A DNA stretch of 64,000 nt from a virus, in the IMG/VR virus record IMGVR_UViG_3300018080_006015, positions 1 through 64,000 of that record. One strand, given 5' to 3'. The notes beneath the pieces were generated by a model that saw only the letters and a program-made list of their open reading frames with translations, made no database searches and was not told the DNA's origin. Positions within the stretch are counted from its first letter, which is position 1. Every line of letters begins with the position of its first letter. Below are positions 3,943 to 41,354 of the stretch, piece after piece. The position numbers and the translations under genes are program-made.

Positions 3943-3946
3943 TATT

Positions 3947-10645: not shown

Positions 10646-10652
10646 GTAAACC

Positions 10653-15700: not shown

Positions 15701-15702
15701 TT

Positions 15703-17479: not shown

Positions 17480-17492
17480 TATTTATTTTATA

Positions 17493-17603: not shown

Positions 17604-17608
17604 TTATA

Positions 17609-18583: not shown

Positions 18584-18584
18584 T

Positions 18585-19340: not shown

Positions 19341-19343
19341 ATT

Positions 19344-22456: not shown

Positions 22457-22538
22457 ATTTTCCGTATATATATTTAATAGTATTCGAGTGATTTTTTGTT
22501 CGTATATTCTGATATATAACAAATAAAAAGAGGGTTAT

Positions 22539-23273: not shown

Positions 23274-23310
23274 TAATATCAGCCATAAGCATATGTGTTT
23301 GGAGTAGTGA

Positions 23311-24051: not shown

Positions 24052-24090
24052 TGTTTTCTGGTAAAATATGGAATACAACCACATTAAGAT

Positions 24091-26207: not shown

Positions 26208-26951
26208 ATGATTATAGGTGAAAATTTTGTTTTTATTCATAACCCACATACCGGCGGGGCGTTTATTAGATCTGCGTTTCGTGAGGCGTTGCCATCTGCA
26301 TTTTCTATGAAGTTGGAGGATTGGCATAAGCCTATAGATAGCTTACAGATAAAATATAGGGATAAGATAAAGTTTGGTATGGTTCGAAATCCTTGGGCCT
26401 GGTATGTTTCTTTTTATTTGCACCAACAGCCAAACGGTCAGTTTCTTAGATTATTTTTGGACGGAAAAAGCAATGAATTTTCTAGATTTTTGAGCAATAT
26501 GCTATCTACAAATTTTATAAAAAAGCGAATTGATAGCAAGTTTCATCCTGTGGGAAATCCTTATTTGCCGGTAGGGGTTCCAAAATTTAAGTATATGCAT
26601 AGCTTAGATGTTGGATTTTTCAGTTATCGGTATATTTATATGTTTTGTTTTAATTATAAAGAAATATTTAACGAAGAAAACAAAACAAATATTATAAGAA
26701 ATCATGATAAGTGGTTATCTTTGGATGTTGTTGGAAAAACAGAAAATCTTGTTGCTGATTTGTCTAATTTTTGTATTAAATACAAATTACCGGTTAATAA
26801 AAAACATATGAGTAAATGGCATAAAAGGCCAAAAGAAAATAGTTATACGAAAAAGCCTTATACAAAATATTATAACTCTGATTTGATTAGGCTTGTGGAA
26901 CAAAAAGATAGAATGATAATAAAAAAATATGGGTACAAATATGGCTCATAA
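26208..26951 (+). CDS. Sulfotransferase family protein
   Basis: A 247-residue protein with a PAPS-binding pattern: FVFIHNPHTGGAFIRSAF at residues 8-25 corresponds to the 5'-phosphosulfate loop, and FGMVRNPWAWYVSFY corresponds to the 3'-phosphate contact, RNPW being typical of carbohydrate sulfotransferases. KWHKRPKENSYTKKPYTKYY near the end resembles the close of Sulfotransfer_2-type proteins. It would move sulfate from PAPS to a hydroxyl of a glycan. The loop reads HTGGA where others have KTGGT or KCGST, so activity is likely but unproved. It overlaps the next gene by up to 23 bases. Confidence 0.75.
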   Translation: MIIGENFVFIHNPHTGGAFIRSAFREALPSAFSMKLEDWHKPIDSLQIKYRDKIKFGMVRNPWAWYVSFYLHQQPNGQFLRLFLDGKSNEFSRFLSNMLSTNFIKKRIDSKFHPVGNPYLPVGVPKFKYMHSLDVGFFSYRYIYMFCFNYKEIFNEENKTNIIRNHDKWLSLDVVGKTENLVADLSNFCIKYKLPVNKKHMSKWHKRPKENSYTKKPYTKYYNSDLIRLVEQKDRMIIKKYGYKYGS

Positions 26952-27918
26952 TGTTCACAAAAACAAATTAGTACCACCTGGTCAATCTTACAAATTACCC
27001 ACCCTTTTAGTTTCGTCTGTACATCGATCTTCTAAGCAGTCGCAGGCTCATGGTGGTGTTTATTTGGTGAATTTGAATACTGGTAAGTATAAAAATTTGT
27101 TTTTAGCTAAGCATGATGTTAGTTTACATGGGCGTGGTGGTGAGCGTGGTTTTCGTGGAATAGCATTTTGGAAAGGTAAAACATATTTGGGATTGCATGA
27201 CGGTGTTCAAATATATAATCAAAAGTTTAAGCATATAGATACAATTAGACAGGATAATTATCTGGGAAGTGTTCATGAAATTTGTATTTTTCAGGGAACA
27301 TTATATGTGGTTTCTACAAATTACGATTCGATTATTGCATTTAATTTACAAAACAATAAAATGATTAATTGTATGACAATAAAACATAAAAATAAGAATC
27401 AGTTTTTTTTATGTAAAAAAAATAATCCACCGATAAAAGCTGATTCACTACATATAAACAATGTATATGCAGATAATCGTGGGGTATTTTGCTCTGGTAC
27501 TAATTTTTCGTCACTTTTGCAAATAAAAAACAATGTACTTAAAGTGTTTTCTAGGGTTTTACCAGGAACACATAATTGTCGTCCTTATATGAATGATAAA
27601 ATTATTTGTAATGATACTCAAAGAGGGCGTTTAGCTATTCTTTCGATTGGTGGACGTTGTGATAAATATGTAAATGTTAGACGAATAGGCCATAACCAAA
27701 TGGTTGGTGCAGATCGTTCTGAGAAAATAGCCAGACAACCATTTGCAAGGGGATTAACATTTGATGATCGGGTAATTATTGGAGGATCTTCGCCGGATAT
27801 GATTTCTGTATATAATAAAAATGATTTATCTCATATTAAAACAATAAATTTGTCCATGAATATTACACATTGTATTCATGGATTAGAGATTTATCCATAT
27901 CAGCAAGACGTGGTGTAA
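26929..27918 (+). CDS. Predicted beta-propeller protein, TIGR03032/DUF4915-like
   Basis: A 329-residue protein made of short beta repeats: GGVYLVNLNTGKYKNLF, GIAFWKGKTYLGLHDGVQI, HEICIFQGTLYVVST, ARGLTFDDRVIIGGSSP and HCIHGLEIYP. The rhythm and phrases such as HINNVYADNRGVFC are like the propeller proteins (TIGR03032/DUF4915 style) that occur in glycan clusters beside sulfotransferases. Biochemical role is unknown. The start is ATG 26929 or, in the same frame, 26941, which overlaps the sulfotransferase stop. A second sulfotransferase gene follows after 1 base, so the three are probably one unit. Confidence 0.55.
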   Translation: MGTNMAHNVHKNKLVPPGQSYKLPTLLVSSVHRSSKQSQAHGGVYLVNLNTGKYKNLFLAKHDVSLHGRGGERGFRGIAFWKGKTYLGLHDGVQIYNQKFKHIDTIRQDNYLGSVHEICIFQGTLYVVSTNYDSIIAFNLQNNKMINCMTIKHKNKNQFFLCKKNNPPIKADSLHINNVYADNRGVFCSGTNFSSLLQIKNNVLKVFSRVLPGTHNCRPYMNDKIICNDTQRGRLAILSIGGRCDKYVNVRRIGHNQMVGADRSEKIARQPFARGLTFDDRVIIGGSSPDMISVYNKNDLSHIKTINLSMNITHCIHGLEIYPYQQDVV

Positions 27919-27919
27919 T

Positions 27920-28717
27920 ATGAGTAAGATTTCCAGATTATTTTTCTGTATAAATTCTGGTCGTTCTGGATCACATTATCTTCAAAAGTTGTTAAGCACT
28001 TCTCCAGAAATAGCATCTTTTGGTGAACAAGCGCCAACAATGAGCGGAAAATATTTACATGCAGTTAATAAATATCCTTATTCTGTCTCTTATGATGATA
28101 GAAAAATAAAAACAGATAAGATAGAAAACATTATTACAAACCTACCCAAATCAAAACTTGTTTATAGTGAAACAAATCATATGTTTATAAAAACGTTTTT
28201 TGATGTGGTTATTGACCATTTTGGACCAAAAGTAGAAGTTATTATTTTACGAAGGAATTTAGCAAATACATTAAAAAGCTTTATAGAGCTAGATTATTTG
28301 GGAAAAAATCACGTGTCTTATGATTGGATGGTTAACACAGATTCTCCCACGGCGGCTACAAGGGCTTTGGGTAAATTCAAGCAGATGAGTCATTATAATC
28401 GTTGTATTGCTTATTTGTTAGATATTGAGGCTAGAGCGTTGCGTTTCCAAAAAGATTATCCTAACATAAAAACACACGAAGTAAGAGTTGAAAATCTTAA
28501 CGACGTTAAAAATGTTAAAATATTTTTTAAACAATTAGGCATCTCATACACAAAGGAAACACAATCTGTATTAGGAAACGCCGTTAATACAAGACAAAGT
28601 AGAAAAAAACATTTTAATAACATAACAACAGTAGATCTTTGTGCGAAAAAATGCAGACAATATATTAATCGCGCTAAAGTTGCTGGAATTGATGTTCCAA
28701 ATGTTAAGATTATTTAA
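27920..28717 (+). CDS. Sulfotransferase family protein
   Basis: A 265-residue protein with LFFCINSGRSGSHYLQKLL near the N-terminus; the GRSGSHYL loop is a clear 5'-phosphosulfate-binding motif. VEVIILRRNLANTLKSFIEL supplies the 3'-phosphate-binding region with its Arg and Ser. A Glu-rich helix and YTKETQSVLGN complete a single-domain sulfotransferase. It would use host-made PAPS, since no APS kinase or ATP sulfurylase is visible. It belongs to a different subgroup from its neighbours, which argues for a different acceptor position. A 92-base gap follows with no feature I can support. Confidence 0.8.
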   Translation: MSKISRLFFCINSGRSGSHYLQKLLSTSPEIASFGEQAPTMSGKYLHAVNKYPYSVSYDDRKIKTDKIENIITNLPKSKLVYSETNHMFIKTFFDVVIDHFGPKVEVIILRRNLANTLKSFIELDYLGKNHVSYDWMVNTDSPTAATRALGKFKQMSHYNRCIAYLLDIEARALRFQKDYPNIKTHEVRVENLNDVKNVKIFFKQLGISYTKETQSVLGNAVNTRQSRKKHFNNITTVDLCAKKCRQYINRAKVAGIDVPNVKII

Positions 28718-28809
28718 TTGTAGGGACATTATATTATCTGATCAATTTTTGGTTGAGTAATTGTTGTTGTAATATTAAAATGTAAAAGAATTTAATATAA
28801 GGCTTTATA

Positions 28810-29847
28810 ATGATTAATTTTTTGGCAAATAAAAAGTTAGATTATGCAAGAATACAAGATATTTTGTCTGTTTCAGAATCAAAAAACCATTATACAAACG
28901 ATGGTCCCGTAAAACGATTATTAGAAAAAAAATTAGAAGAAATATTAGAAATAGACGAAGACAAATGTGTTGTTTGCGTGAGTAATGGAACTACAGCGCT
29001 ACATACATTGATGTTTTTATGTGAAGAATATTTGGATGTAAATTCTTGGGTTGTGCCTGCATTTACTTTTCCATCACCTGTTGTTGGAACTGGGTGCAAT
29101 GTTTCAATTTTAGATATCGAATATGATACATATACATTAGATTTTGACCAAAATAAATTACACAAATTTGATGGGATAGTATTAACAAATCTTTTTGGCT
29201 CATATGTCGACTTGTATAAGTGGCAAGCATATTGCGATGCAACTGGTAAAATACTAATTTTTGATAACGCTAGTTCTCCATTATCTAAGTGTAACGGGGT
29301 AAATATATGTAATTTTGGCGATTGTTCTTTTGGAAGTTTGCATCACACTAAATATTTGGGTTGCGGCGAGGGAGGTTTTGTTGTTGTTCCAAAGCAGTAT
29401 TATGATAAGGTGTTATCCATTGTAAATTTTGGTTTTTATTTTGATCGTAAGCATAAAAAATTATCTTCTAACTTTAAAATGTCTGACGTATCGGCGGCAT
29501 TTATATTGTGTCATATAGAAAACTATAACATAGATAAACATAAAGAAGTACAAAACAAATTAGTTAATATGATTAAAAGTATTGATGGTGTTAATTTGTT
29601 TAATTACAAGCCAGGAACAGTATATAATAATTTTCCGGTATTGTTCGATCAGCCTATAGGTACAGAAGCATTTGATAATAGTGGAATTGTAGTGCATAAA
29701 TATTATGAGCCGCTGAAGTCTTTGCCATTTTCGAATATGTTATTTGACCATATTATTAATTTCCCATTAAATAATGAGTTTGATGATAATAATATAGATT
29801 GCATAATAGATGCAATTGATGGTATTGTGGTGGGTGATAATGTATGA
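28810..29847 (+). CDS. DegT/DnrJ/EryC1-type sugar aminotransferase
   Basis: A 345-residue PLP enzyme of the family that aminates keto-sugar nucleotides. CVVCVSNGTTALHTLM is the PLP phosphate-binding segment, SWVVPAFTFPSPV the following strand, ILIFDNASSPLSK the site whose Asp contacts the PLP nitrogen, and SLHHTKYLGCGEGGFVV contains the Schiff-base Lys within HTK. It is a little short for the family but complete in motifs. It would convert a 4-keto (or 3-keto) sugar nucleotide, perhaps one made by the RmlB- or Gmd-like dehydratase here, to an amino sugar. The next gene overlaps it by 8 bases. Confidence 0.85.
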   Translation: MINFLANKKLDYARIQDILSVSESKNHYTNDGPVKRLLEKKLEEILEIDEDKCVVCVSNGTTALHTLMFLCEEYLDVNSWVVPAFTFPSPVVGTGCNVSILDIEYDTYTLDFDQNKLHKFDGIVLTNLFGSYVDLYKWQAYCDATGKILIFDNASSPLSKCNGVNICNFGDCSFGSLHHTKYLGCGEGGFVVVPKQYYDKVLSIVNFGFYFDRKHKKLSSNFKMSDVSAAFILCHIENYNIDKHKEVQNKLVNMIKSIDGVNLFNYKPGTVYNNFPVLFDQPIGTEAFDNSGIVVHKYYEPLKSLPFSNMLFDHIINFPLNNEFDDNNIDCIIDAIDGIVVGDNV

Positions 29848-30547
29848 GTTTAACCGGAAGCATAAAGGTGGTTTTAATAAAATATTTGGTATAGGAGAAA
29901 ATAAAACTGGAACTACATCTTTAGGAGTTGCTTTAAATGTTCTTGGGTGTGGACAAATGGCTGCGTGGCCACAGTCTAAGCATATTATTAATGGATTTAG
30001 ATCTAGTTATACGGATATGTTTTCGCAAATGAATGTTGTTTGTAGAATGTATCGTCATTTTAATGATTTTCCTTGGAATATATTAGATTTGTACCAAATG
30101 TTAGATAAAAGGTTTATTAATAGTAAGTTTATATTAACCGTTAGAGATCCTGAATGTTGGTTTAAATCATTAAAAAATTGGTGCACTGTCCCAAGTGGAA
30201 ATTATACTGATTTAATGTGGAGAATTCATAAAAATTTCAGACGAGACAGGCGTTATAGAAGAGTGATAGGATTATTTGAGAAATGTTTTGAGCAGAAATA
30301 TGGAATTAAGTCAAATAATGGTGTATTTCGGGTGAGCGAATATAAGGATAAGTATATAAAAGGATATATTAATCGTAATAAGATGATTAAAAAATATTTT
30401 GAACGTAGACCAAATGATTTATTGGTTGTCAATTGGGAAGATGGTGATGGATGGGAAGAATTGTGTAATTTTTTAAATAGAAAAATACCATCTCGTCGTT
30501 TTCCACATGCATTGAAAAGAAAATTTAATAACAAATATTATGGGTAA
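29840..30547 (+). CDS. Sulfotransferase, Sulfotransfer_4-like
   Basis: A 235-residue protein. FGIGENKTGTTSLGVALNVL is the PAPS 5'-phosphosulfate loop, SKFILTVRDPECWFKSLKNW the 3'-phosphate region, and DLLVVNWEDGDGWEELCNFL a phrase diagnostic of this sulfotransferase subgroup. The close at RRFPHAL is also typical. I prefer ATG 29840, inside the end of the DegT gene and after GGTGGG, over an in-frame start 30 bases upstream. It is closely related in text to the minus-strand gene at 33886-34473. It would sulfate a hydroxyl of an unknown acceptor. Confidence 0.85.
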   Translation: MYEFNRKHKGGFNKIFGIGENKTGTTSLGVALNVLGCGQMAAWPQSKHIINGFRSSYTDMFSQMNVVCRMYRHFNDFPWNILDLYQMLDKRFINSKFILTVRDPECWFKSLKNWCTVPSGNYTDLMWRIHKNFRRDRRYRRVIGLFEKCFEQKYGIKSNNGVFRVSEYKDKYIKGYINRNKMIKKYFERRPNDLLVVNWEDGDGWEELCNFLNRKIPSRRFPHALKRKFNNKYYG

Positions 30548-31190
30548 AACAATGTCAAATCAAAAAAAGCCGGGCGTACAAGGTAAGTTTCCTTTTGGTA
30601 AAGAAATTATTCATAAAGGTTACAAATTAAAGGGTTGGCCGTTAAAAAATGCTTGCTTAAATAAATATCGCAAGATTTTATCTGGAATAAAAAACGGTAA
30701 AATTGTGGAGGTTGGCGTATATGGAGGGGCAAGCATTTTAAGTGTAATAGATATTTGTATAGCAAATAATAATGTAATTTTTGGGATAGATCCTTGGGAG
30801 CGAATTAGCCGAACAAATGGGCAAATACCAGACAAAGATTTTTTAATTGAATGTCAAAAACAAATGAAATCAGCCAGAAAAAACCTAGAAAAAATCGTTA
30901 CTGATTTAAAATATGATAAATATATTAAATTAATTCAGGGTTTTTCTCCGGCAAAAGCTAGTTTATTTGATAATAATAGTTTAGATATGGTTTATATAGA
31001 TGGAGAACATTCATATAATGCCGTATTTTCTGATATGACGGCGTGGCTTCCTAAAATTAAGAAAAATGGCACTCTATGGGGAGATGATTTTGTTTGGAAG
31101 AGTGTTAGTATGGCAGTTAAAAAGTTTTGTAAAGATAATAAATTGAAATTTACAAGCACCGGTAGAAGCTGGTTTGTTCATGTGGTATAA
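30540..31190 (+). CDS. Class I SAM-dependent methyltransferase (Methyltransf_24-like)
   Basis: A 216-residue protein with the SAM-binding motif GKIVEVGVYGGASILSVI at about residues 53-70, a following acidic position at VIFGIDPWERI, and LDMVYIDGEHSYNAVFSDM, the motif of class I methyltransferases in glycan clusters. The length is normal for a single domain. It overlaps the sulfotransferase gene by 8 bases. A likely task is O-methylation of a sugar; the acceptor is not shown. The start could also be ATG 30552. Confidence 0.75.
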   Translation: MGKTMSNQKKPGVQGKFPFGKEIIHKGYKLKGWPLKNACLNKYRKILSGIKNGKIVEVGVYGGASILSVIDICIANNNVIFGIDPWERISRTNGQIPDKDFLIECQKQMKSARKNLEKIVTDLKYDKYIKLIQGFSPAKASLFDNNSLDMVYIDGEHSYNAVFSDMTAWLPKIKKNGTLWGDDFVWKSVSMAVKKFCKDNKLKFTSTGRSWFVHVV

Positions 31191-31193
31191 AAT

Positions 31194-31880: not shown

Positions 31881-32942
31881 TTATTTCTTGCTTTTTCGCG
31901 CGGTGCAGATATAATAGAATTGGTATATTTGATCTACTTGAATTTCTTCAATGTTTTTAGGAAGAAATTCAATTGGACAATGATGAATAACATTATGATT
32001 TGATAATACGAATTTAAAGTAAAGCTTTTCAATAAAAGATGCAGAATTGTATAATTGTTCGTCTAGGAACAGAATCTTACCACCTTTTTTTGTAACTCTT
32101 ACCATTTCCTCTAAAGCAACTTTTGTATTAGCACAACTATTAATTGCGCCATAATTTGTAACGATATCAAATGTTTCAGACTCAAAAGGGAGCTTATGGG
32201 CGTCAGCTAACAAAAGGGTTACAGGAACATGTTGTTGATTCATGATTTTTTGTCCCTTAGTTAACATTTGTTTAGAAAGATCAACTCCTGTATATTCTGC
32301 ATTCAAATTCATCCATCCATGACGAAACAGTGAATTACATGTACCTGTTGCGATGTCTAGCATTTTAAGCTTTGTTGTGGAATTTTGATATTCTTTTTGA
32401 AATTCTGAGTGTATTTGTGTAAATGTTTTGGTTGGTTTGTATTGGTGTTTGAATAGTGATATTTTGGTTGGAATAGCTAAAACTAATAAGTAAAATATGT
32501 ATTTGTGTTTATATAAAATGTATGATGTGCTTATTAATAATATTCCTACAAAAATATCTGTTATAGATACGCAATGTTGTGAATAAACAAGCCAACAAAT
32601 TGAATATCCAACTACAAGCATCAAATATAATACAATAAAAAAATATGCTAACCAGTATTTAATTGATATTTTAATTGGTCTGACCGGAAGGCTTAAAAAT
32701 GGCATGAAAAAATTATAAAATCTTCCAAAAAGATTGTTATAAAAAGAATCCATAAGATGTTTATCGTCATTTCTTATTTTCGATTTAATTGAAAAATCTG
32801 GAATTCCATTTGTACAAACATATTGTTGTTTACAGTGTTTACATTCCCAATATGTTTTGTGTTTTAAGAATTTTGGGTTTTTACATGTTAAGCATATTAT
32901 CGGTGATGTTTTGTTTGTGTTTTTATTGTTATTTTTCGTCAT
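31881..32942 (-). CDS. Membrane-anchored SAM methyltransferase with Trm112-like zinc ribbon
   Basis: A 353-residue protein. Residues 17-37 hold CLTC and CKHC, a Trm112-like zinc ribbon. About residues 95-160 are two or three hydrophobic segments (FFIVLYLMLVVGYSICWLV; FVGILLISTSYILY). From about residue 190 a methyltransferase domain follows, with LDIATGTCNS as the SAM loop, YTGVDLSKQML as the acidic strand and DIVTNYGAINSC and RVTKKGGKILFL downstream. Zinc ribbon plus methyltransferase is known in isolation; membrane helices between them are uncommon. It begins the minus-strand block. The acceptor could be a lipid-linked sugar, which would fit the membrane anchor, but that is inferred. Confidence 0.75.
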   Translation of the reverse strand: MTKNNNKNTNKTSPIICLTCKNPKFLKHKTYWECKHCKQQYVCTNGIPDFSIKSKIRNDDKHLMDSFYNNLFGRFYNFFMPFLSLPVRPIKISIKYWLAYFFIVLYLMLVVGYSICWLVYSQHCVSITDIFVGILLISTSYILYKHKYIFYLLVLAIPTKISLFKHQYKPTKTFTQIHSEFQKEYQNSTTKLKMLDIATGTCNSLFRHGWMNLNAEYTGVDLSKQMLTKGQKIMNQQHVPVTLLLADAHKLPFESETFDIVTNYGAINSCANTKVALEEMVRVTKKGGKILFLDEQLYNSASFIEKLYFKFVLSNHNVIHHCPIEFLPKNIEEIQVDQIYQFYYICTARKSKK

Positions 32943-32971
32943 TTTTCTTACCAGTCTAATTTATATAATTA

Positions 32972-33901
32972 TTATTTTGAAATCGCATAACCAAAACCAG
33001 ATTGTCCAAAACCGTTTCCATTATAAAACATATATTTTAGACCATTATATGAAATTACATATGGATATGCCATCATTGAAGAATCCCAATTAGCATCAGA
33101 AACAGAAAAATTAATTTGATCGTCTTTTCTAATCCATTTTTTTCCATTGATAGATTCTGCATAGCCAATTTTATAGCTGTTTTGTAATGTGCTACGATAA
33201 TGTGTGATATTGCGAAAAGAATACCACATTTTATATAATTTATTTTCTTTGATTATTGAGGCGCGAACAATGCCCCCTTCTTTATTGGATTTATAATCAA
33301 TTGCAACGTTGTTATTGCGTTGCCAGTTTATTCCATCATTTGATTCTGCGTATTTTATGTGATAATATGGTTCTGGTTTATTGTTTATCATTTTCCATTT
33401 TGTACATGACATATACCAGTTTTTCCATACATCATTCTCAATCATTACCCATGATGTTCCAGTAAAATGAGGCTCGGTGTGTGTTGTTCCAAATATTGGG
33501 CCATTAGAATATCTTTCGAAGGATTTTCCGCCGTTATAGCTTATGGCCAATCCTATAGAGTTATGATATGGTACTGTTTTTCTTGTTGTCCACCCGGTAT
33601 AATATAGGTATTTTTTGTTTCCATTAGATATTACGCATGATGGCATAACGCCACTGTCATCAAACGTTCCTAATTCGCCAAGATCCAGTACCGGTTTGTG
33701 ATGTTCATATAGTATATTTTGTGGATTTCCGGCTTCTACATCTATAAAGCTTATTCTGCTTTTACCTAAGGCATCTCTTGTAGAAAAATATATTCTCCAA
33801 CGATTTTTTGATATACTATCTATTGTAGGTAGCTGTGCATGTGTCTGATTCCATCGATATTTACCAGATACATTATATATATGGTCTATTTTTTGCCACA
33901 T
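32972..33901 (-). CDS. Five-bladed beta-propeller, GH43/GH32-like
   Basis: A 309-residue protein with repeated blade phrases: WRIYFSTRDALGKSRISFI, KKYLYYTGWTTRKTVPYHN, IGLAISYNGGKSFERYS, KIKYAESNDGINWQRNN-type segments and YMFYNGNGFGQSGFGYAIS. These match the five-bladed propeller of GH43/GH32-like proteins often placed in O-antigen clusters. LGTFDDSGVMPS provides an early Asp and TEPHFTG a Glu, possible active-site residues. Many such cluster members are of unproved activity, so hydrolase is not certain. Its first codons overlap the upstream minus-strand sulfotransferase by 16 bases. Confidence 0.65.
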   Translation of the reverse strand: MWQKIDHIYNVSGKYRWNQTHAQLPTIDSISKNRWRIYFSTRDALGKSRISFIDVEAGNPQNILYEHHKPVLDLGELGTFDDSGVMPSCVISNGNKKYLYYTGWTTRKTVPYHNSIGLAISYNGGKSFERYSNGPIFGTTHTEPHFTGTSWVMIENDVWKNWYMSCTKWKMINNKPEPYYHIKYAESNDGINWQRNNNVAIDYKSNKEGGIVRASIIKENKLYKMWYSFRNITHYRSTLQNSYKIGYAESINGKKWIRKDDQINFSVSDANWDSSMMAYPYVISYNGLKYMFYNGNGFGQSGFGYAISK

Positions 33902-34473
33902 TGTTTAGATTTGTTTTTATGTGGAAATGGATTTTTTGTTGGAACTTCTTTGTTTAAGAAATGATAAAAATCAATCCATGAATTATCTTTGCTTACGTCT
34001 AATATAAAAAAATTGTGATGATTTTCAAAATATTGGATTATCATATTATTTCTACATTTGTAAATTTCGGTATAATATGAATCATTTTTAGGAAAATAGT
34101 TATGACCAAAAATTTTATTATGAAATAAAAAGTAACCAGTATGTATTTTAGGCTTTAATACATTAATTACCATTTTTTTTAATGATAATAACCAATCATT
34201 TTGATCGCGAATGGTTAGTATAAATTTGCTATTTGGAAATTCTTTATTAAGATGGATAAAAAAATCATTTGCCGCCCATGGAATATCTTCGAATGATTGG
34301 TATTGGTTGGCAATTTTGAATAGTTTGTCATATTGATTATTAATCCAATATGGCATTAGTTTATTGGAGTTTTTCCAATGACCTTTTAGGTGTTTATATC
34401 CTAAGTTTTTAAGGGCAAATCCTAAAGAAGATGTTCCTGTTTTTGGCCACCCTATTCCAAATATTTTTTTCAT
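33886..34473 (-). CDS. Sulfotransferase, Sulfotransfer_4-like
   Basis: A 195-residue protein with KIFGIGWPKTGTSSLGFALK as the 5'-phosphosulfate loop and SKFILTIRDQNDWLLSLKK as the 3'-phosphate region, then FILDVSKDNSWIDFYHFLN and FPHKN at the end. It is close in text to the + strand gene at 29840-30547 and a little shorter. This pair looks like paralogues on opposite strands about 3.3 kb apart. It would sulfate an unknown acceptor and stands between the propeller and the acyltransferase genes. Confidence 0.8.
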   Translation of the reverse strand: MKKIFGIGWPKTGTSSLGFALKNLGYKHLKGHWKNSNKLMPYWINNQYDKLFKIANQYQSFEDIPWAANDFFIHLNKEFPNSKFILTIRDQNDWLLSLKKMVINVLKPKIHTGYFLFHNKIFGHNYFPKNDSYYTEIYKCRNNMIIQYFENHHNFFILDVSKDNSWIDFYHFLNKEVPTKNPFPHKNKSKQCGKK

Positions 34474-34488
34474 AATTATATATAAATA

Positions 34489-35166
34489 TTAGAAATCAAT
34501 ATCTTTGCTCAATAAAGGCTCATCATTTTTATTCGTGGCATGTTTTGCTGGCGCACCTTTGTATATGTGCCATGGGTTTGTGTCTTTGGTAATTAATGCC
34601 CCCATAGCAATAAGCGATCCTTCTCCAATTTTTGCGCCATCTCTAATTGTTGCGTTTACTCCGAAAAATGAGTTTGCACCTACGTCACAATGTCCAGAAA
34701 GTACAACATGAGATGTGAAGAATACATTGTGGTCAATTTTGCTGTGGTGACCAATATGATTTCCGCTCCAAAAAACACAATTATTGCCAATTTCTACAAA
34801 TGGTTGTATTGTATTGTCTTCAAGGATAAAATTGTTGTCGCCTATTTTGTCGGTTAGAACTGTGGCGTGAGAACTGATATAATTAACAAACGTATATCCC
34901 TTATTTTTGCCCTGGTCGTAAATTGATTCTCGCAAACGATTTATTGATCTATGTGATAATGGTGCGAACAGACAATATTCGTCCGTACTGTAATGTTTTT
35001 CTATATCTTCGAATGGCACAACAGGTAAGCCTTCAAATACCGCATTGTCTGGCATGTACTCTTTAGACACTGTAAATGCAACGACCTCATGTTTGCTATC
35101 GGTTCTTAAATAATAATGAGCCAAAGATGCAAAATCTAAAACTCCAAAAATTATAACTTTAGCCAT
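34489..35166 (-). CDS. NeuD-like sugar O-acyltransferase (left-handed beta-helix)
   Basis: A 225-residue protein. AKVIIFGVLDFASLAHYYL is the N-terminal nucleotide-like fold used by NeuD/PglD-type enzymes, then hexapeptide repeats build a left-handed beta-helix: ILEDNTIQPFVEIGNNCVF, HHSKIDHNVFF, GHCDVGANSFFGVNATI and AKIGEGSLIAMGALI, ending NPWHIYKGAPAKH. The His in GNHIGHHSKI is well placed to be catalytic. It would transfer an acetyl or other acyl group to a sugar hydroxyl or amine. The methyltransferase gene precedes it in the same minus-strand block. Confidence 0.85.
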   Translation of the reverse strand: MAKVIIFGVLDFASLAHYYLRTDSKHEVVAFTVSKEYMPDNAVFEGLPVVPFEDIEKHYSTDEYCLFAPLSHRSINRLRESIYDQGKNKGYTFVNYISSHATVLTDKIGDNNFILEDNTIQPFVEIGNNCVFWSGNHIGHHSKIDHNVFFTSHVVLSGHCDVGANSFFGVNATIRDGAKIGEGSLIAMGALITKDTNPWHIYKGAPAKHATNKNDEPLLSKDIDF

Positions 35167-35181
35167 ATTTAATAGTCTCCA

Positions 35182-35805
35182 TTATTTGTAAATATATGTT
35201 GTATATTCATATAACCCATAGTCTTGTCTAAATGTGAAATTTTTCGATATATTATTTCTCAAAAAATTCGCCAATTTATCAAACGGCAAATGGAAAAGAT
35301 CTTCTCTAGTCCAATCAACATGATGAGACATGAAATTTACGGATAATCCAATTTTGGAATGATTAAATATTTTATTAATCATATTTTTCGTATAATCAAA
35401 CATTTCGGTGAAGGTTAGGTTTTGTTTTTCTGTAAATACCCCATTTGCGATAATGTAATCAAATTTTGGCAGTTGCAATTTGTTTTTCAAGATATCGTAG
35501 CAATAATATGTGTTTTGTGGGTATTTTTGTTTTGATTTGTTGATGAATTTTCTCGAAATATCTAGTCCAGAATATTTTATATTTCGATATTTTTGGACTT
35601 TTATGTAATCATACAAATGAGACAGTCCGCATCCAAAATCCAATAACGTTAAATTATCATTTTTATTTTTAATAACGTCTAGCATAATGCTATGTCTTAT
35701 TTGTGCATCATCAGCATTTGGCCAGTCAACACCTTTTGGTGAATCTCCGTATTTTTCAAAGCAAGCTTCATAGTGTGATACTATATTTAAATATTTTTTC
35801 GTCAT
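35182..35805 (-). CDS. Class I SAM-dependent methyltransferase
   Basis: A 207-residue protein with LTLLDFGCGLSHLYDYI as the SAM loop, KYSGLDISRKFINKSKQKY as the following strand with its acidic residue, and FDYIIANGVFTEK as the post-motif-II strand. It is the first gene of the minus-strand block. A divergent + strand gene starts within about 110 bases, or 10 bases if the longer form of that gene is used. The likely task is methylation of a sugar in the same pathway; the acceptor is unknown. Confidence 0.75.
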   Translation of the reverse strand: MTKKYLNIVSHYEACFEKYGDSPKGVDWPNADDAQIRHSIMLDVIKNKNDNLTLLDFGCGLSHLYDYIKVQKYRNIKYSGLDISRKFINKSKQKYPQNTYYCYDILKNKLQLPKFDYIIANGVFTEKQNLTFTEMFDYTKNMINKIFNHSKIGLSVNFMSHHVDWTREDLFHLPFDKLANFLRNNISKNFTFRQDYGLYEYTTYIYK

Positions 35806-35916
35806 TTTAAATATATGTATTTAACCGCGAAAGTCTCGACAAAGATTATTTTTGCTTGTTGTCTTGTGTTATTATTGCATTTAAAGAGGGACTATAAAGC
35901 CGAACTTGGTAACAAT

Positions 35917-36849
35917 ATGACAAAATCAAATAACATACAGAAAGTTCCTATTGCCAAAGGTTCTGGGCTTATGGTGTATAATCCCTCTATTGAGTACTTT
36001 ATAGAAAAAATAGCGGGACGTAAATATTTTTCTTTTGTTAGATTTCAGGTTGAATTTTGGTGTACAGCAAGGATAGCATTACAATTTATGGGGTATCGAG
36101 GTTGGGCATATCCAAATTCTATTGATATCACACCGGAATTTATTAAAACATGGTCTCAAAACATGATTCGAGCATGGGAGGAAAAGCAAAGTTATAAGCG
36201 CCCATGGGTATTTAAGTCAGAAATATTTGAAGAACAATTAAATATGATTGTTAATCCAAAGCCAAATAATTTTAAATTGGCGGTAAGTGATCGGGCATGG
36301 TTTTTTGGTAAATTCCCACCACCACCAGGAAATTGGCCGTGGTCTCCCAGAATGGTAAAGAAAATGATACCGAGTGGTGAAATACCATTTAATGCGATAT
36401 GTTGGAGGCGCTGGGGCTATTTTGGAGAGATTCAAAAATTTTTTAATACTTTCAAAGATAAACGTATTGTGATAGTTGGCCCTTATTATTTTGATAATTT
36501 TGGTGAAAAACTTGGTTTGAAAAATTATACACATATTAAGATAAGTCATACAAACGCAAGTGAGTATGTGTACGATTACTTAGAGGAAATAAAGAAGTTT
36601 CATAATAGCATATCGCCAAGTGATGATGTTATATATTTTTTTAGTGGAGGATCTCCTGGTATATGGTTAATACAACAACTACATAATAAATTGCATAACG
36701 CTTTTATGATTGATATTGGTCGGGCATTTGATGTTTATTATTTTTACGACACAATAAGAAAGGGCGATGCTGCGTGGAAATGGGGTTGTTGGTTGGAGAG
36801 AAATCCTCCTAAATGGATTAAGAACAAACTTAGTAATGTAATAAGATAA
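35917..36849 (+). CDS. Possible GT-D-type glycosyltransferase
   Basis: A 310-residue protein (from ATG 35917). The C-terminal part has KRIVIVGPYYFDNFGEKLG, VYDYLEEIKKFH, DDVIYFFSGGSPGIWLIQQL and NAFMIDIGRAFDVYY. The order of a VGP strand, a helix, a GGSP-like loop and an IDIGR-like strand resembles the GT-D (DUF1792) fold first seen in streptococcal glycosylation. An earlier ATG at 35815 would add a hydrophobic 34-residue extension and fill the divergent gap, so I prefer the later start. The fold call is tentative. It lies at the junction where the island returns to + strand genes. Confidence 0.5.
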   Translation: MTKSNNIQKVPIAKGSGLMVYNPSIEYFIEKIAGRKYFSFVRFQVEFWCTARIALQFMGYRGWAYPNSIDITPEFIKTWSQNMIRAWEEKQSYKRPWVFKSEIFEEQLNMIVNPKPNNFKLAVSDRAWFFGKFPPPPGNWPWSPRMVKKMIPSGEIPFNAICWRRWGYFGEIQKFFNTFKDKRIVIVGPYYFDNFGEKLGLKNYTHIKISHTNASEYVYDYLEEIKKFHNSISPSDDVIYFFSGGSPGIWLIQQLHNKLHNAFMIDIGRAFDVYYFYDTIRKGDAAWKWGCWLERNPPKWIKNKLSNVIR

Positions 36850-36861
36850 TTATAGGTAAAT

Positions 36862-37611
36862 ATGGACTTTATTGTATTGACATATGACGACAGGCTGTCT
36901 TTTACGGAATTAATGATAAGATCGTATTTGGATTTTTTTCCGAAATTTGATATTACATTTAATATTCCATACAATAATGACGAAACATTAAGAAAAATAA
37001 AATTATTGCCAGGAAATATTACCCCAATAAAATGTAAAAAAGAGATGAAACCCACCATGTCTGCTTTATTGGGTAGTATACCAGATAATAAATTTGTTTA
37101 TTGGTGTAGTGATGATCGTTATGTGGCAAGTTTTAAAGATGCACAGCGTTTTCGAAAAATCTCTAAAACATTATCTAACAATGCGTCGGTCAATTTAGAC
37201 GCAGTAAGAACGCTAACTATTCCGGCGCAACACAGGCGAAATGTTAAGATTAAATTAGATAAAAACTTAGTATTGTTTAAGTTTTCAGATTCTGTTGTTC
37301 ATGGGTTTTGGAATCATCACTTTATTAGATGTAAGTGGCTGAAAGATATTTTTATTAATAATAATTTGCCTGAAAATTATGAGTTAAGGGATTTACATAA
37401 GTTGATGGGTAACAGAAATAAACAATATAATCATAGAATATATACTGTTGGATCTTCAATATGTGTGTTTGGTGAAACTACATATCATGACAAAATGACA
37501 ATAAATTGTAGAAAAGCAATGAACAAATATGGCATACAGATACCAGAATATCCTTCAGATAATATAAAAATCTTTTTTGATGGAAGACCTAGACTTACTC
37601 GTGTAAAATGA
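36862..37611 (+). CDS. Probable GT-A-type glycosyltransferase
   Basis: A 249-residue protein beginning MDFIVLTYDDRLSFTELMI, a GT-A-like first strand. KFVYWCSDDRYVASF carries a DD pair where DxD is expected. HGFWNHHFIRCKWLKDIF and HDKMTINCRKAMNKYG are later landmarks. The arrangement suggests a nucleotide-sugar transferase, but the family is not one I can name. It sits 12 bases after the GT-D-like gene and precedes a sulfotransferase gene. Substrate unknown. Confidence 0.55.
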   Translation: MDFIVLTYDDRLSFTELMIRSYLDFFPKFDITFNIPYNNDETLRKIKLLPGNITPIKCKKEMKPTMSALLGSIPDNKFVYWCSDDRYVASFKDAQRFRKISKTLSNNASVNLDAVRTLTIPAQHRRNVKIKLDKNLVLFKFSDSVVHGFWNHHFIRCKWLKDIFINNNLPENYELRDLHKLMGNRNKQYNHRIYTVGSSICVFGETTYHDKMTINCRKAMNKYGIQIPEYPSDNIKIFFDGRPRLTRVK

Positions 37612-37659
37612 TTGGAAATGATGTCAAAAAAAATATTTAAGCAGATATATTAGAAAGAT

Positions 37660-38316
37660 ATGAACTCATCTTATGATCCGCGAATGGAACAATATCCCTT
37701 ATTAATTAGTTATCCGCGAAGCGGTAGTAATTGGCTTAATTGCACCTTAGAACTTTACTATAATAAACCTCGTTTAAGGGGTGATGGTCCTGTTACATTT
37801 TTGAAAAATCGAAGAAAAAGAACGGATTATATGTGGTTTCATGACCATGATATTTTTTCGGACCTTAAAGTTGGTCATGATAACATATTATATTTGTATA
37901 GAAACCCAGATGATGTTATTTATTCGCTTTTAATGGCGGAAAATGGGCACACTACTCAGAAATTAGTAGACGATCAAATATTTAGGTTGAAAAAACATTT
38001 TAGAAAGTATATTTTGAACGGAGTCGCTACGGAATGTGTTAGATATGAGTCTTTAAAAAATATGAAATATAAAGAGTTTGATAAAATAATAAAGTTTTTT
38101 AATAAAATCGATGTTTTGAATAAAGGTAAACTAAATAGTGCTATTAAAATAGTAAAAAAGGGACAAATAATTAATAAGGAAGTTGATAAAAGATATTTTA
38201 ATAAAAACATGCTGTCGAGTTCATATGAGGTTGGCCGTAAAAAATTTAAGGATCAATATTCATCATATATCTATGCAAATTTAATTACAAAAGAGTTGAG
38301 TGATTATTTTGTATAA
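37660..38316 (+). CDS. Sulfotransferase family protein
   Basis: A 218-residue protein with YPLLISYPRSGSNWLNCTL near the N-terminus; YPRSGSNW is the strict 5'-phosphosulfate loop of classical sulfotransferases. NILYLYRNPDDVIYSLLMA provides the 3'-phosphate site with RNP and Ser. The C-terminus is rich in Lys and short for the family. It would move sulfate from PAPS. Its sequence is closer to the gene at 39107 than to the Sulfotransfer_4-like pair. Genes for two GT-A-like proteins flank it. Confidence 0.85.
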   Translation: MNSSYDPRMEQYPLLISYPRSGSNWLNCTLELYYNKPRLRGDGPVTFLKNRRKRTDYMWFHDHDIFSDLKVGHDNILYLYRNPDDVIYSLLMAENGHTTQKLVDDQIFRLKKHFRKYILNGVATECVRYESLKNMKYKEFDKIIKFFNKIDVLNKGKLNSAIKIVKKGQIINKEVDKRYFNKNMLSSSYEVGRKKFKDQYSSYIYANLITKELSDYFV

Positions 38317-38334
38317 TTCTTAATATTTATTAGT

Positions 38335-39102
38335 ATGGATAAAAAACAAATTGTTACAATTTTTCAAACTTATGGAAGTATAAGTATAGTAAAGCAAACT
38401 CTTCCATCGGTTATTGAAGAAACTAAAAAAAATGATGCGGCGTTGATTGTTTTTGATTCTACCGAAATTAAAGATGGCAGAAAAGAGAAATGGCAATATT
38501 TGCAAAATTTAAATGTAAATGACGATTTTTTCTTAATATTATCTTCAAATTTGTCAGTTGCAGATTCTAGAAACACTTGTATGTTTTTAGCGCAGAAGTT
38601 ATATGTTCCAGATTATATTTGTATAATGGATGATGATCATGGTTTTAAGTCGGGTTTCATAGCAAAATTAATAGATGCTATGCAGAAATATTATGGAAAA
38701 ATTGCCCCAAATGGTCTTCGTTTTGGTTTGTTTACCGGATGTGGCGAACATAGGCACGGCCCAAGATTAAATATGAAAGATGGACATACATGTCCAGATC
38801 CTACATGTAAGCCAGGCGCTCTTGGTGGAACAAATGGTTGTTTCAGATGTGCTCCAACTTCCCATTGGAACAATGTGTTAAATGGATATGAATCAGACGA
38901 ATATTTAATATCATATTATCAAACAAGTAGTATAAGTAGAAGAAATTACCACAAAGGATTTACCACTTTAATTGTAAAAAATGGTAGTAAAATGTTTTGT
39001 ATTAATTATTCTGGCAGAGGTGGCTCCGCACCTAAGGGCAAAATGTTGTGGGATGATAAATATACCGCTAGTGATAGGCGCTCAAAATATAGGAAACGTT
39101 AA
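38335..39102 (+). CDS. Probable GT-A-type glycosyltransferase
   Basis: A 255-residue protein with KQIVTIFQTYGSISIVKQT at the start and YICIMDDDHGFKSGFIAKL in the middle, where DDD fits a metal-binding DxD. LSVADSRNTCMFLAQKL precedes it, as in GT2-like enzymes. A Cys-rich stretch (CPDPTCKPG and CFRCAP) at about residues 155-180 could hold a metal ion; that is unusual for GT2. Conservation outside the core is low, so family and acceptor are unknown. A sulfotransferase gene starts 4 bases after the stop. Confidence 0.6.
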   Translation: MDKKQIVTIFQTYGSISIVKQTLPSVIEETKKNDAALIVFDSTEIKDGRKEKWQYLQNLNVNDDFFLILSSNLSVADSRNTCMFLAQKLYVPDYICIMDDDHGFKSGFIAKLIDAMQKYYGKIAPNGLRFGLFTGCGEHRHGPRLNMKDGHTCPDPTCKPGALGGTNGCFRCAPTSHWNNVLNGYESDEYLISYYQTSSISRRNYHKGFTTLIVKNGSKMFCINYSGRGGSAPKGKMLWDDKYTASDRRSKYRKR

Positions 39103-39106
39103 ATTT

Positions 39107-39775
39107 ATGATGAAAAAAAAGAAACAAAAAATAAGAGAAAGGAAAACTTATTTATTGTCGTTTCCCAGATCGGGAAATACGTGGGTACGATATTGTATTG
39201 CGCATATTATTAATCCAATAGTAGCTGGTTCGCGCCAAAAAACTGTAGATTTAAGTGGTAGTGATAAGGTTTTATTAAAGGTTCATCATATAAATAATGA
39301 TAGGGCTCAAAAAACTAAAAAATCTCATAAATTGATACTGCTGGTTAGAAATCCGTATGAAGCTATTGTTAGAACTATGAATAAAAAGAATATAGGACTA
39401 ACAAAAAGACGTTCCCGCAAATATTTTAATTGTTTGGAAATGTATAATGACTGGGAGGCTGATAAAATATTAATATATTATGAAGACTTAATTTTGAATC
39501 CTAAAAAAACTTTAAAAAAAATATTGAAATTTCTAAACATATCTTCTAGAAATTTGGATGATTTTATATCTTCGTATGAGTTTCATCAAAAAAGAAGCCT
39601 CAAATATTACCACAAAGTAGCTGAACGTGGCCGTACAGAGGGTGACGCAAACAAACTAAATTATCATAGTAAACTAACACACAAAGATAATTTATCTGAA
39701 GTGAAAAGATTAGTAAATTGTGAATATAAAGATTTGTCCATAAAGTACTTAAAGCGATATATGAATAGTGTCTAA
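39107..39775 (+). CDS. Sulfotransferase family protein
   Basis: A 222-residue protein. KTYLLSFPRSGNTWVRYCIA carries the 5'-phosphosulfate loop FPRSGNTW in its standard form. LILLVRNPYEAIVRTM is the 3'-phosphate region and ILIYYEDLILNPKKTLKKIL the conserved acidic-DL motif near the acceptor cleft. The C-terminus ends in YKDLSIKYL. I place the start at ATG 39107 (or ATG 39110), right after the upstream stop; an in-frame start at 38981 would run through the previous gene. It closely follows a GT-A-type gene and precedes an FkbM methyltransferase gene. Confidence 0.85.
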   Translation: MMKKKKQKIRERKTYLLSFPRSGNTWVRYCIAHIINPIVAGSRQKTVDLSGSDKVLLKVHHINNDRAQKTKKSHKLILLVRNPYEAIVRTMNKKNIGLTKRRSRKYFNCLEMYNDWEADKILIYYEDLILNPKKTLKKILKFLNISSRNLDDFISSYEFHQKRSLKYYHKVAERGRTEGDANKLNYHSKLTHKDNLSEVKRLVNCEYKDLSIKYLKRYMNSV

Positions 39776-39784
39776 GGCAAATAA

Positions 39785-40444
39785 ATGCCAAAAAATAACA
39801 ATATAATGATTAATATATACGACATACTTAAAGATATTGTGTTTGAAAATCCAATTGTGTTTGAGATTGGTGTGCACAAAGGTCAAGATACCAAAAAATT
39901 ATTGGATGTATTTAAAAATGTAAATTATTATGGTTTTGAGTGTGATCCGCGCAATATAGCAAATATTAAAACAAATTCGGTATACGATAAGATTACTCTA
40001 GTAGAATTCGCCGTTAGCAATAAGAATGGTGTTGCAGATTTCTATATGTCTAATGGTACTCCACAAACGCATTCCATAAATAATACGGCTTCGTCTTCTT
40101 TACATGAGCCAACTGGACATTTAGAACGATGGAAGTGGGTTACATTTGAAAGGCCAATACAAGTAAACACATGTACATTAGATACGTTTTGTCAAGAAAA
40201 TAACATAGACCATATTGATTTTATTTGGGCAGACGTACAGGGTGGTGAATATAATATGATCCTGGGTGCTCAAAATATTTTAAAATTTACACGATATTTG
40301 TATACAGAATATTCAAATGTTGAGCTTTATAAAGATCAAAAACCATTAAATGATTTGTTGAAAATATTGCCTGGGAATTGGAGCGTTGTTAAAGATTTTA
40401 GGTCAGATGTGTTTTTGAAAAATATTGACCTATACTGCAAGTGA
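39785..40444 (+). CDS. FkbM-family methyltransferase
   Basis: A 219-residue protein with VFEIGVHKGQDTKKLLDVF as the SAM loop, YYGFECDPRNIANIK as the acidic strand, and ITLVEFAVSNKNGVADFYM, the FkbM hallmark phrase. TLDTFCQENNIDHIDFIWADVQGGEYNM is the family's late motif with its Asp. FkbM enzymes O-methylate sugars and secondary metabolites and are common in glycan loci. AAGG stands before the ATG. It is followed by a 154-base gap containing a promoter-like sequence. Confidence 0.85.
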   Translation: MPKNNNIMINIYDILKDIVFENPIVFEIGVHKGQDTKKLLDVFKNVNYYGFECDPRNIANIKTNSVYDKITLVEFAVSNKNGVADFYMSNGTPQTHSINNTASSSLHEPTGHLERWKWVTFERPIQVNTCTLDTFCQENNIDHIDFIWADVQGGEYNMILGAQNILKFTRYLYTEYSNVELYKDQKPLNDLLKILPGNWSVVKDFRSDVFLKNIDLYCK

Positions 40445-40554
40445 TAAATGAGCAAAATATAGAAAAAAAATAAGTGGGCCGATGGTTAACATATATGATG
40501 TTACAGATAATTGCATTCTTATAAGTTTTTTTGTGTTATATTTATTGGTGTGTT

Positions 40555-40584
40555 TTGACTTTGTGGGGTTATTTGTTTTATAAT
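40555..40584 (+). promoter_or_regulatory. Possible sigma70-type promoter
   Basis: In the 154-base gap after the FkbM gene, TTGACT at 40555-40560 is followed after 18 bases by TATAAT at 40579-40584, near-perfect -35 and -10 boxes. The predicted transcript start lies only a few bases before the ATG at 40599, leaving almost no room for a Shine-Dalgarno. It could drive a near-leaderless transcript into the sulfotransferase, gmd and fcl genes. The rest of the gap shows nothing that I can support. Confidence 0.35.
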
Positions 40585-40598
40585 TTGGTGGTGTTTTT

Positions 40599-41354
40599 AT
40601 GAAAAAATTTATTATTATGTCACCTGTGCGGTCAGGATCTTCATTGTTGAGAAAAATGTGTCATGAGCCGCCATATAGTCACTTTTTGTTTCAGCCATTT
40701 AATTTGAACCAGCTGAGAAAGTTAGGTATTAATAAGTCACTTAAAGTAGTGCAAAACAGAATGGATAATCCATCCAGATTTTTAAATTTTCTATTTTCTA
40801 AATATCATAACGAGTCTGTTGGGGCAAAAGTTATCATTACCAGTAAGGCAAACCATACGTTGGAAAATATATGTAGAAACAAAAACTTTAAAATTATTTT
40901 ATTATATAGAAAAAATTTAAGCGAATCATTTGTTTCTAGAGAATTAGCAAGAACAACTGGACGATGGGGATTACAATCTGGTGATCCTCTACCTAAAATA
41001 AAAAACACATTGCATTTTAATTATCAGGGCATTGAGAAATTTTCCAACAAAGTGTTTAGAAAATTGTCCGCATGTAAGCGCATTTTAGATGACAGATTTA
41101 CAGATGATTATTTGGTTTTATCGTATGAGGATCTCGTAGACAAGAATTTAAAAATTGATATGAAAAATATAAATATTGTTAGGGAATTTGTGGGAATTTC
41201 TAAATTAAGACAATATAATCCGACATCGCAAAAACAAAATGATGAAAAAACTTATTCTATGATTGAGAATAGGCAAGAATTAGATGAAAAATGTGGCAAG
41301 ATGTATGGGTATTTAGGACAAAGATCTGAACCATTAATTTGGAAAGATTTTTAA
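40599..41354 (+). CDS. Sulfotransferase family protein
   Basis: A 251-residue protein. KFIIMSPVRSGSSLLRKMCH carries the 5'-phosphosulfate loop in the form PVRSGSSLL, and FKIILLYRKNLSESFVSREL the 3'-phosphate region with its Arg and Ser. DDYLVLSYEDLVDK is the conserved acidic-DL motif. It is the last of the seven sulfotransferase genes and stands 12 bases before gmd, so it may act on a fucose-containing acceptor; that is inference from position. A promoter-like pair of boxes lies just upstream. Confidence 0.8.
   Translation: MKKFIIMSPVRSGSSLLRKMCHEPPYSHFLFQPFNLNQLRKLGINKSLKVVQNRMDNPSRFLNFLFSKYHNESVGAKVIITSKANHTLENICRNKNFKIILLYRKNLSESFVSRELARTTGRWGLQSGDPLPKIKNTLHFNYQGIEKFSNKVFRKLSACKRILDDRFTDDYLVLSYEDLVDKNLKIDMKNINIVREFVGISKLRQYNPTSQKQNDEKTYSMIENRQELDEKCGKMYGYLGQRSEPLIWKDF

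Follow-up and report, generated by a model that had tools for sequence, protein, structure and literature searches.

Seven predicted sulfotransferase genes

Seven genes encoding predicted sulfotransferases (STs), here named ST1 to ST7, lie within 15 kb of a sequence from a large uncultured phage, comprising the first 64 kb (hereafter the window) of a 119,629-base IMG/VR virus record (IMGVR_UViG_3300018080_006015), itself a linear fragment (G000). All seven open reading frames (ORFs) are intact. Each has near its N-terminus the loop that binds the 5'-phosphosulfate group (5'-PSB) of the sulfate donor 3'-phosphoadenosine 5'-phosphosulfate (PAPS), followed 45-95 residues later by a 3'-phosphate-binding motif (3'-PB). 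The G+C content of the ST genes is 26-31%, against 34% for the window.

26208..26951, + strand: ST1, Sulfotransfer_2 / Gal-3-O-sulfotransferase type; 5'-PSB FIHNPHTGGAFI, 3'-PB MVRNPWAWYVSFY
27920..28717, + strand: ST2, probable Sulfotransfer_3/Stf0-like; 5'-PSB CINSGRSGSHYL, 3'-PB LRRNLANTLKSF
29840..30547, + strand: ST3, Sulfotransfer_4 type; 5'-PSB GIGENKTGTTSL, 3'-PB TVRDPECWFKSL
33886..34473, - strand: ST4, Sulfotransfer_4 type; 5'-PSB GIGWPKTGTSSL, 3'-PB TIRDQNDWLLSL
37660..38316, + strand: ST5, Sulfotransfer_1 type; 5'-PSB LISYPRSGSNWL, 3'-PB LYRNPDDVIYSLL
39107..39775, + strand: ST6, Sulfotransfer_1 type; 5'-PSB LLSFPRSGNTWV, 3'-PB LVRNPYEAIVRTM
40599..41354, + strand: ST7, probable Stf0/NodH-like; 5'-PSB IMSPVRSGSSLL, 3'-PB LYRKNLSESFVSR

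The open frames of ST3 (29810-30547) and ST6 (38981-39775) extend further upstream, but their starts are best placed at internal ATGs, 29840 and 39107 respectively, which match the ends of the preceding genes; the glycosyltransferase upstream of ST6, for example, ends at 39102. ST4 starts at 34473 on the minus strand, 33886 being its low end.

The genes were assigned with Pfam (using curated cut-offs), PHROG and NCBIfam profiles, with hhalign and with sequence and profile searches of the PDB. Four exceed the Pfam cut-offs: ST3 and ST4 match Sulfotransfer_4 (PF17784; E = 2.4e-28, 99.9 bits and E = 1.3e-26, 94.3 bits, respectively, against a cut-off of 22.8), while ST5 and ST6 match Sulfotransfer_1 (PF00685; E = 7.6e-7, 29.2 bits and E = 2.1e-8, 34.3 bits, against 22). 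ST1 matches nothing in Pfam and is firmly assigned by PHROG 3347 (galactose-3-O-sulfotransferase, E = 1.7e-9). ST2 and ST7 are classed as probable sulfotransferases because their matches to Sulfotransfer_3 (E = 0.0057 and 0.021) fall under the cut-off. None of the seven has an NCBIfam match. A first-pass annotation of the window had placed seven sulfotransferases at these positions, in at least three subgroups. All seven ORFs are indeed there with both motifs, five of them firm and two probable, and no profile convincingly reassigns any of them to another P-loop family; the profile search proposed in that annotation leaves ST2 and ST7 below threshold.

Individual families provide further detail. 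The 15-member viral family of ST1 aligns with an invariant loop of the IHxPKTGG type, the RN..S residues of an RNPW.. 3'-PB motif and a nearly invariant His, in keeping with the profile match to the Sulfotransfer_2 / Gal-3-O-sulfotransferase type; a protein of this family in an uncultured huge phage, LR756508.1, matches PF03567 at 1.5e-15. ST3 and ST4 are 31-35% identical and have in common K23TGT, R103D..S111 and D84, the acidic residue after PW. Their profile matches the solved sulfotransferases 9kf1, SgdX2 and SmSULT-OR (E to 1.8e-15), with 9kf1 aligned along its length. Among 13 relatives of ST5 and ST6 the PRSG loop and a His are invariant. The 3'-PB Ser is kept in ST5 and replaced by Arg in ST6, as in most viral relatives of the latter, and this Arg may still bind phosphate. 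ST6 is close to a viral ST family that includes the LR756508.1 gene at 317922.

A family profile built from ST7 and two LR756508.1 proteins matches the lipopolysaccharide (LPS) sulfotransferase NodH (9vki, E = 0.011), and a viral ST7 homologue (L100) matches Stf0 (PF09037) at E = 3.6e-4, slightly under the cut-off. An hhalign comparison of ST2 with the ST7 family gives an alignment 224 columns long (E = 7e-5, probability 63). Single-sequence AlphaFold2 models of ST2 and ST7 are unusable (predicted local distance difference test, pLDDT, 34.8 and 32.8) and give ST2 no structural support. A PDB sequence match of ST2 to hyaluronate lyase (E = 6e-5) was rejected, since it covers only residues 138-248, outside the PAPS loop, and is probably composition-driven.

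A combined pattern, the 5'-PSB followed by the 3'-PB 35-120 residues downstream, picks out exactly the seven STs among the 72 ORFs of at least 150 residues in the 119.6-kb record, and 0.01 matches are expected among shuffled proteins. Because the pattern was written after inspection of the seven, its clean points are the lack of further matches and the shuffle rate. No eighth ST was found in the 119.6-kb record with either the profiles or the pattern.

Groups and origin

The seven fall into at least four groups: two Sulfotransfer_4, two Sulfotransfer_1, one Sulfotransfer_2-like and two Sulfotransfer_3/Stf0-like proteins. All-against-all BLAST gives a strong link between ST3 and ST4, weak links between ST5 and ST6 and between ST2 and ST7, and nothing else. 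The tree built for viral Sulfotransfer_1 proteins places ST5 not with ST6 but with an ST of another virus record, G006 (support 99/99). Since ST5 and ST6 are not sisters and the groups are unlinked beyond ST3/ST4, the genes appear to have been acquired mostly one by one rather than by recent duplication; for ST3 and ST4 themselves, the tree does not separate duplication from two gains.

Single-protein searches with ST2, ST3 and DnaB retrieved no IMG/VR relatives, and among annotated phages ST2, ST3 and ST7 have no match, with LR756508.1 the sole match for ST1 and ST6. A plasmid search yielded nothing for ST2 and two hypothetical Paracoccus proteins for ST7. Bacterial relatives of the Sulfotransfer_4 proteins are scattered over Pseudomonadota, Bacteroidota, Cyanobacteriota and Planctomycetota.

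Turnover of the sulfotransferases between related viruses

The STs lie in an island about 31 kb long (14594-45916), which holds some 30 predicted sugar-building genes, the STs included. Relatives of the island were sought with the gene at 26929, which encodes a β-propeller-like protein, and 60 viral loci were found. Two of them, L008 (in G001, 113 kb) and L009 (in G002, 321 kb), are near-identical, and both are syntenic with the window. G001 has, in addition, a thymidylate synthase-like gene, as many phages do.

Orthologues in G002 were identified with blastp at 1e-4 together with synteny, in what is a gene-level test on one phage pair. Syntenic orthologues exist for 21 of the 29 non-ST island genes (27-66% identity) and for none of the seven STs (Fisher p = 8e-4). 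The STs therefore behave as a variable layer over a conserved backbone, and the comparison of gene content suggests that they are the most-swapped part of the island. The methyltransferases at 30540, 31881 and 39785 and the family 2 glycosyltransferase (GT2) at 38335 likewise have no G002 orthologue, so that the variable layer is better described as decoration generally, with the STs foremost. Two different ST-like genes are present in G002, both with weak Pfam matches (0.0075 and 1.5e-4): one lies between GT4-like and methyltransferase genes and the other immediately 5' of the gene for GDP-mannose 4,6-dehydratase (GMD). These slots are those occupied here by ST1/ST2 and by ST5-ST7. This turnover, the want of membrane export machinery in the island and its position against the tail genes (see below) all go beyond the first-pass annotation.

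The glycan island and its neighbours

The island begins directly downstream of baseplate and tail genes (703..13625), which have the same order in G002 at 54-61% identity. It encodes at least nine glycosyltransferases, two of them of fucosyltransferase families, and four methyltransferases besides the seven STs. The principal features flanking and surrounding the STs are these, assigned with Pfam unless otherwise indicated.

703-3942, + strand: baseplate J protein (Baseplate_J)
3947-10645, + strand: 2232-residue protein with a lamin-G-like domain (Laminin_G_3)
10653-13625, + strand: 990-residue dockerin protein (Dockerin_1)
14594, + strand: GT4 glycosyltransferase, first gene of a glycosyltransferase block (14594..25170) that is syntenic in G002
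15703, 16679, 18585 and 22539, + strand: GT2 glycosyltransferases of the same block
21506-22522, - strand: GT10 fucosyltransferase of the same block
23311, + strand: GT11 fucosyltransferase of the same block
24091: HNH/LAGLIDADG-like ORF within the block
25207..26199, + strand: Glyco_trans_1_2 glycosyltransferase (PF13524, E = 3.5e-24; 59% identity in G002)
26929..27918, + strand: β-propeller-like protein (37% identity in G002, 32-33% in LR756508.1)
28810..29847, + strand: DegT/DnrJ/EryC1 sugar aminotransferase (PF01041, E = 4.4e-30; 50% identity in G002)
30540, + strand: methyltransferase (Methyltransf_24)
31194, + strand: WbqC-like protein (WbqC, 1.5e-61)
31881-32942, - strand: methyltransferase (Methyltransf_11)
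32972..33901, - strand: five-bladed propeller protein resembling glycoside hydrolase family 130 (weak PF04041 match, E = 0.0026; 49% identity in G002)
34489-35166, - strand: hexapeptide-repeat acyltransferase (PF00132, 4.8e-17; orthologue in G002)
35182-35805, - strand: methyltransferase (Methyltransf_12, 2.3e-9; orthologue in G002)
38335, + strand: GT2 glycosyltransferase (PF00535, 1.4e-6) in the variable slot of ST5-ST7, without syntenic G002 orthologue
39785 (slot end 40444), + strand: FkbM methyltransferase (PF05050, 2.1e-18) in the same variable slot, without syntenic G002 orthologue
41367, + strand: GMD (PF16363, 6e-122), first of a sugar-nucleotide set with 59-66% identity in G002
43011, + strand: GDP-L-fucose synthase (NF047922, 8.5e-71, under the NCBIfam cut-off)
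44954 (set ends 45916), + strand: dTDP-glucose 4,6-dehydratase-like protein (TIGR01181, 4.9e-107, under the NCBIfam cut-off)

No island protein scanned matches a Pfam family for an initiating transferase, flippase, polymerase or ligase. Every ORF of the 119.6-kb record has fewer than three hydrophobic segments, and G002 has no ORF of the Wzx/Wzy (flippase/polymerase) kind; control bacterial loci readily show such multi-pass proteins. Such an absence lowers the likelihood of a complete host-surface cluster, but not that of one borrowing host export.

The β-propeller-like protein has no Pfam name. It is found in the glycan islands of many viruses, relatives being present in 60 viral contigs, and the family may mark such islands; of the 50 records searched, LR756508.1 among them, only a few match the Sulfotransfer_1 or Sulfotransfer_3 profiles. 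The dockerin protein has a type I dockerin (6.6e-9) with DVNGDGY...DVDGDGY repeats that is retained in G002, a possible calcium-dependent docking site on the phage particle.

The island is followed by genes for helicases, ribonucleotide reductase and, at 46008-47372, a TubZ/FtsZ-like protein. The last of these (Tubulin 1.2e-16, TubZ-like_C 4.5e-9; 52% identity in G002) suggests plasmid-like partition or a long stay in the cell.

Sulfate donor and host

No APS (adenosine 5'-phosphosulfate) kinase was found in the 119.6-kb record or in 26 related records, including the 321-kb G002. A homomeric ATP sulfurylase likewise did not turn up in any of four records, this one and G002 among them, although the CysD/CysN type was not searched for. 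The earlier statement that no PAPS-making enzyme is visible is thus borne out for these two enzymes, and the pair of genes that would make sulfation self-sufficient is not seen in the record. APS kinase is present in 11 of 14 control genomes, which makes supply of PAPS by the host plausible, and presumably it is from the host that the PAPS comes. We name no host, as the available matches are too remote: the G002 terminase is just 24-25% like those of Bacillus siphophages, and the baseplate J protein is nearest to that of Bacillus phage G at 32%.

Comparable islands and known systems

Clustered STs recur in other viruses, as judged by profile matches. Several records contain multiple STs of one type: six matches in G075, five in G070 (at least two of them in one ORF) and three in G073. 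The last also has an ST6-like gene and one further gene resembling an ST, and here the neighbours include genes for GT11, GMD and GDP-fucose synthase. Fucose genes and several STs also occur together in LR756508.1 and at locus L128. Seven is the top count among the records examined, which do not amount to a census.

A close counterpart is LR756508.1 (484 kb), in which GMD, GDP-fucose synthase, the β-propeller and at least five STs (of ST1, ST6 and ST7 types) occupy one locus. It differs from the present island in its gene order, in having no Sulfotransfer_4 gene and in additionally carrying NeuB, a NeuA-like gene and GT29 sialyltransferase-like genes. Within 322024-326845 and 308060-308701 (coordinates of that record) are the NeuB (4.8e-68) and NeuA-like cytidylyltransferase (9e-7) matches and a GT29 family protein (324755, 7.8e-32), the last with two ORFs of similar appearance close by, at 322024 and 326096. 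On these matches, LR756508.1 apparently carries sialylation genes beside its clustered STs. Its island is unannotated and its ST trait has apparently gone undescribed, at least insofar as the accessible portion of the huge-phage paper contains no mention of sulfotransferases. Searches of the open literature, which did not extend to subscription papers and preprints, turned up no account of a phage island with several STs.

Several known systems resemble the island in part. The 'LPS' sugar clusters of cyanophages of the P-SSM2 type (PMC7824862) are likewise large groups of epimerase/dehydratase and glycosyltransferase genes that differ among related phages, but the consulted text of that review mentions no sulfotransferase, whereas the present island has seven STs together with a fucose module downstream of the tail genes. 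In mycobacteriophages (Freeman et al. 2023, as cited in PMC12619734), glycosyltransferases are thought to modify virion proteins without export genes. There, according to the portion of PMC12619734 consulted, which does not mention STs, the glycans are on the C-termini of capsid and tail-tube proteins. Phages of OM43 and Synechococcus phage S-SRM01 carry a Sulfotransfer_3-type gene (PMC10580990), but one per genome, in contrast to seven from at least four groups in 15 kb, and that paper (2023) termed the role of phage sulfotransferases unclear.

Bacterial flagellin glycosylation islands contain DegT, acyltransferase, methyltransferase and glycosyltransferase genes and make a protein-bound glycan in the cytosol without a flippase or polymerase. 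That set of genes is much as here, the acceptor in their case being flagellin. Among solved enzymes, 9kf1, SgdX2 (8y9p) and SmSULT-OR resemble ST3/ST4, Teg14, Teg12, StaL and the SULTs resemble ST5/ST6, and NodH (9vki) resembles ST7, in each case by PAPS loop, 3'-PB and profile matches. Their acceptors are small molecules, glycopeptides or LPS, and are not transferable to the STs described here.

What the sulfotransferases may decorate

The reading that we favour, with confidence falling just short of even, is combinatorial sulfation of a phage-made fucosylated glycan whose acceptor is probably a virion protein. Working in the cytosol with sugar nucleotides of the host, the phage would build a fucosylated, methylated and N-acylated oligosaccharide, to which STs with differing acceptor positions would add sulfates from host PAPS. 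Swapping of STs would then alter the sulfate code and leave the backbone unchanged. The heavy and regio-specific sulfation of the product that the first-pass annotation proposed is an inference from the gene complement. The least certain step is the acceptor, a tail or fibre protein. It is favoured because in two genomes the island lies against the tail genes, and because it lacks a lipid-linked initiating transferase, flippase, polymerase or other multi-pass membrane protein; glycan genes beside structural genes, with export genes absent, fit a virion glycosylation system. A coat of this kind, variable and negatively charged, could serve to tune adsorption, to hide the particle from recognition by host or predator, or to stabilise it.

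Several considerations weigh against this interpretation. The evidence comes from genes, with enzyme activity, glycan and glycoprotein all deduced from them, and two of the enzymes, ST2 and ST7, are just probable STs. Nearness to tail genes does not prove the acceptor, and a phage may borrow the export machinery of its host, which keeps the cell surface in play even without export genes. ST orthologues in G002 could be too diverged for blastp at 1e-4. Finally, the record is a fragment.

The cell surface is indeed where the chief competing explanation places the glycan: fucose, methyl groups and sulfate would be added to LPS, capsule or S-layer glycan during a long residence and would exclude rival phages, ST variants being exclusion types. 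WbqC, DegT and FkbM genes are frequent in O-antigen loci, and the ST7 family resembles NodH, a named LPS sulfotransferase. PMC7824862 reads both the cyanophage sugar clusters and pseudolysogenic, tubulin-bearing jumbo phages in terms of host-surface change, and a TubZ-like gene is present here (46008). We nevertheless think this doubtful, though by no means far-fetched, given an island without initiating phosphoglycosyltransferase, flippase, polymerase or ligase, in a record without multi-pass membrane proteins, and a position at tail genes rather than at a lysogeny module. It is improbable that the product is instead a sulfated saccharide or saccharide-like metabolite, diffusible or at the surface, or a host signal modified in the manner of Nod factors. 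The solved enzymes nearest to ST3/ST4 (SgdX2, SmSULT-OR) do act on small molecules, those nearest to ST5/ST6 (Teg12, Teg14, StaL) act on glycopeptides, and the same jumbo-phage review puts forward metabolites of this sort as the product of a second cyanophage cluster. Yet the acceptor can hardly be read off from the nearest solved structure. A glycan is the likelier product of at least nine glycosyltransferases in the absence of any scaffold-making enzyme (non-ribosomal peptide synthetase, polyketide synthase and halogenase were not seen).

The remaining two explanations can be given little weight. That fewer than seven of the genes encode STs, with 27920 and 40599 being other P-loop proteins and some STs decaying passengers, would fit the sub-threshold profile scores of ST2 and ST7, their poor structure models (pLDDT 35 and 33) and the Arg that ST6 has for the usual 3'-PB Ser. 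It is made very improbable by seven intact ORFs with both PAPS motifs, by the reach of the ST7 family to the NodH and Stf0 profiles and the lengthwise alignment of ST2 with that family, and by the commonness of Arg at this position among viral relatives of ST6. Least probable of all is DNA hypermodification, in which the glycosyl- and sulfotransferases would act on modified bases of the phage genome. One survey (PMC10829341) does cite base modification in phages by both kinds of enzyme, but neither the record nor G002 has a hydroxymethylase of the thymidylate synthase type (PF00303; TET/JBP enzymes were not searched for). Fucosyltransferases, DegT and WbqC, moreover, are not known to take part in base modification.

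A wider proposal goes with the virion-glycan reading. On a fucosylated virion glycan that is made by the phage and conserved in its backbone, exchangeable ST sets might write a combinatorial 'sulfate code'. Such a code would be the bacterial-virus counterpart of the diversification of sulfated fucans or glycosaminoglycans, and would have recurred independently in several viral lineages. We rate the idea as rather unlikely. Sulfation has scarcely been considered in phage biology, and an island where seven STs from no fewer than four groups overlie a conserved sugar backbone, with all seven replaced in a relative, is a concrete system in which to probe it. If the glycan is on the particle, phages would diversify a charged coat through enzyme swapping; if it is on the cell, the STs would specify a new exclusion code. 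In either case they are a source of new enzymes for the synthesis of sulfated sugars.

Other features of the record

At the island edge, 14076-14597 encodes a thioredoxin-like lipoprotein (DUF255/Thioredoxin_7) with no G002 counterpart. Also without counterpart in G002 are giant, structural-looking ORFs of 3245, 1648 and about 5300 residues, rich in DGYDGY, which lie beyond the window at 64929-105282 in record coordinates. The ribonucleotide reductase ORF (53713-57525, 1270 residues) apparently contains an intein with an endonuclease-like domain; its orthologue is of similar length in G002 and shorter (851 residues) in LR756508.1.

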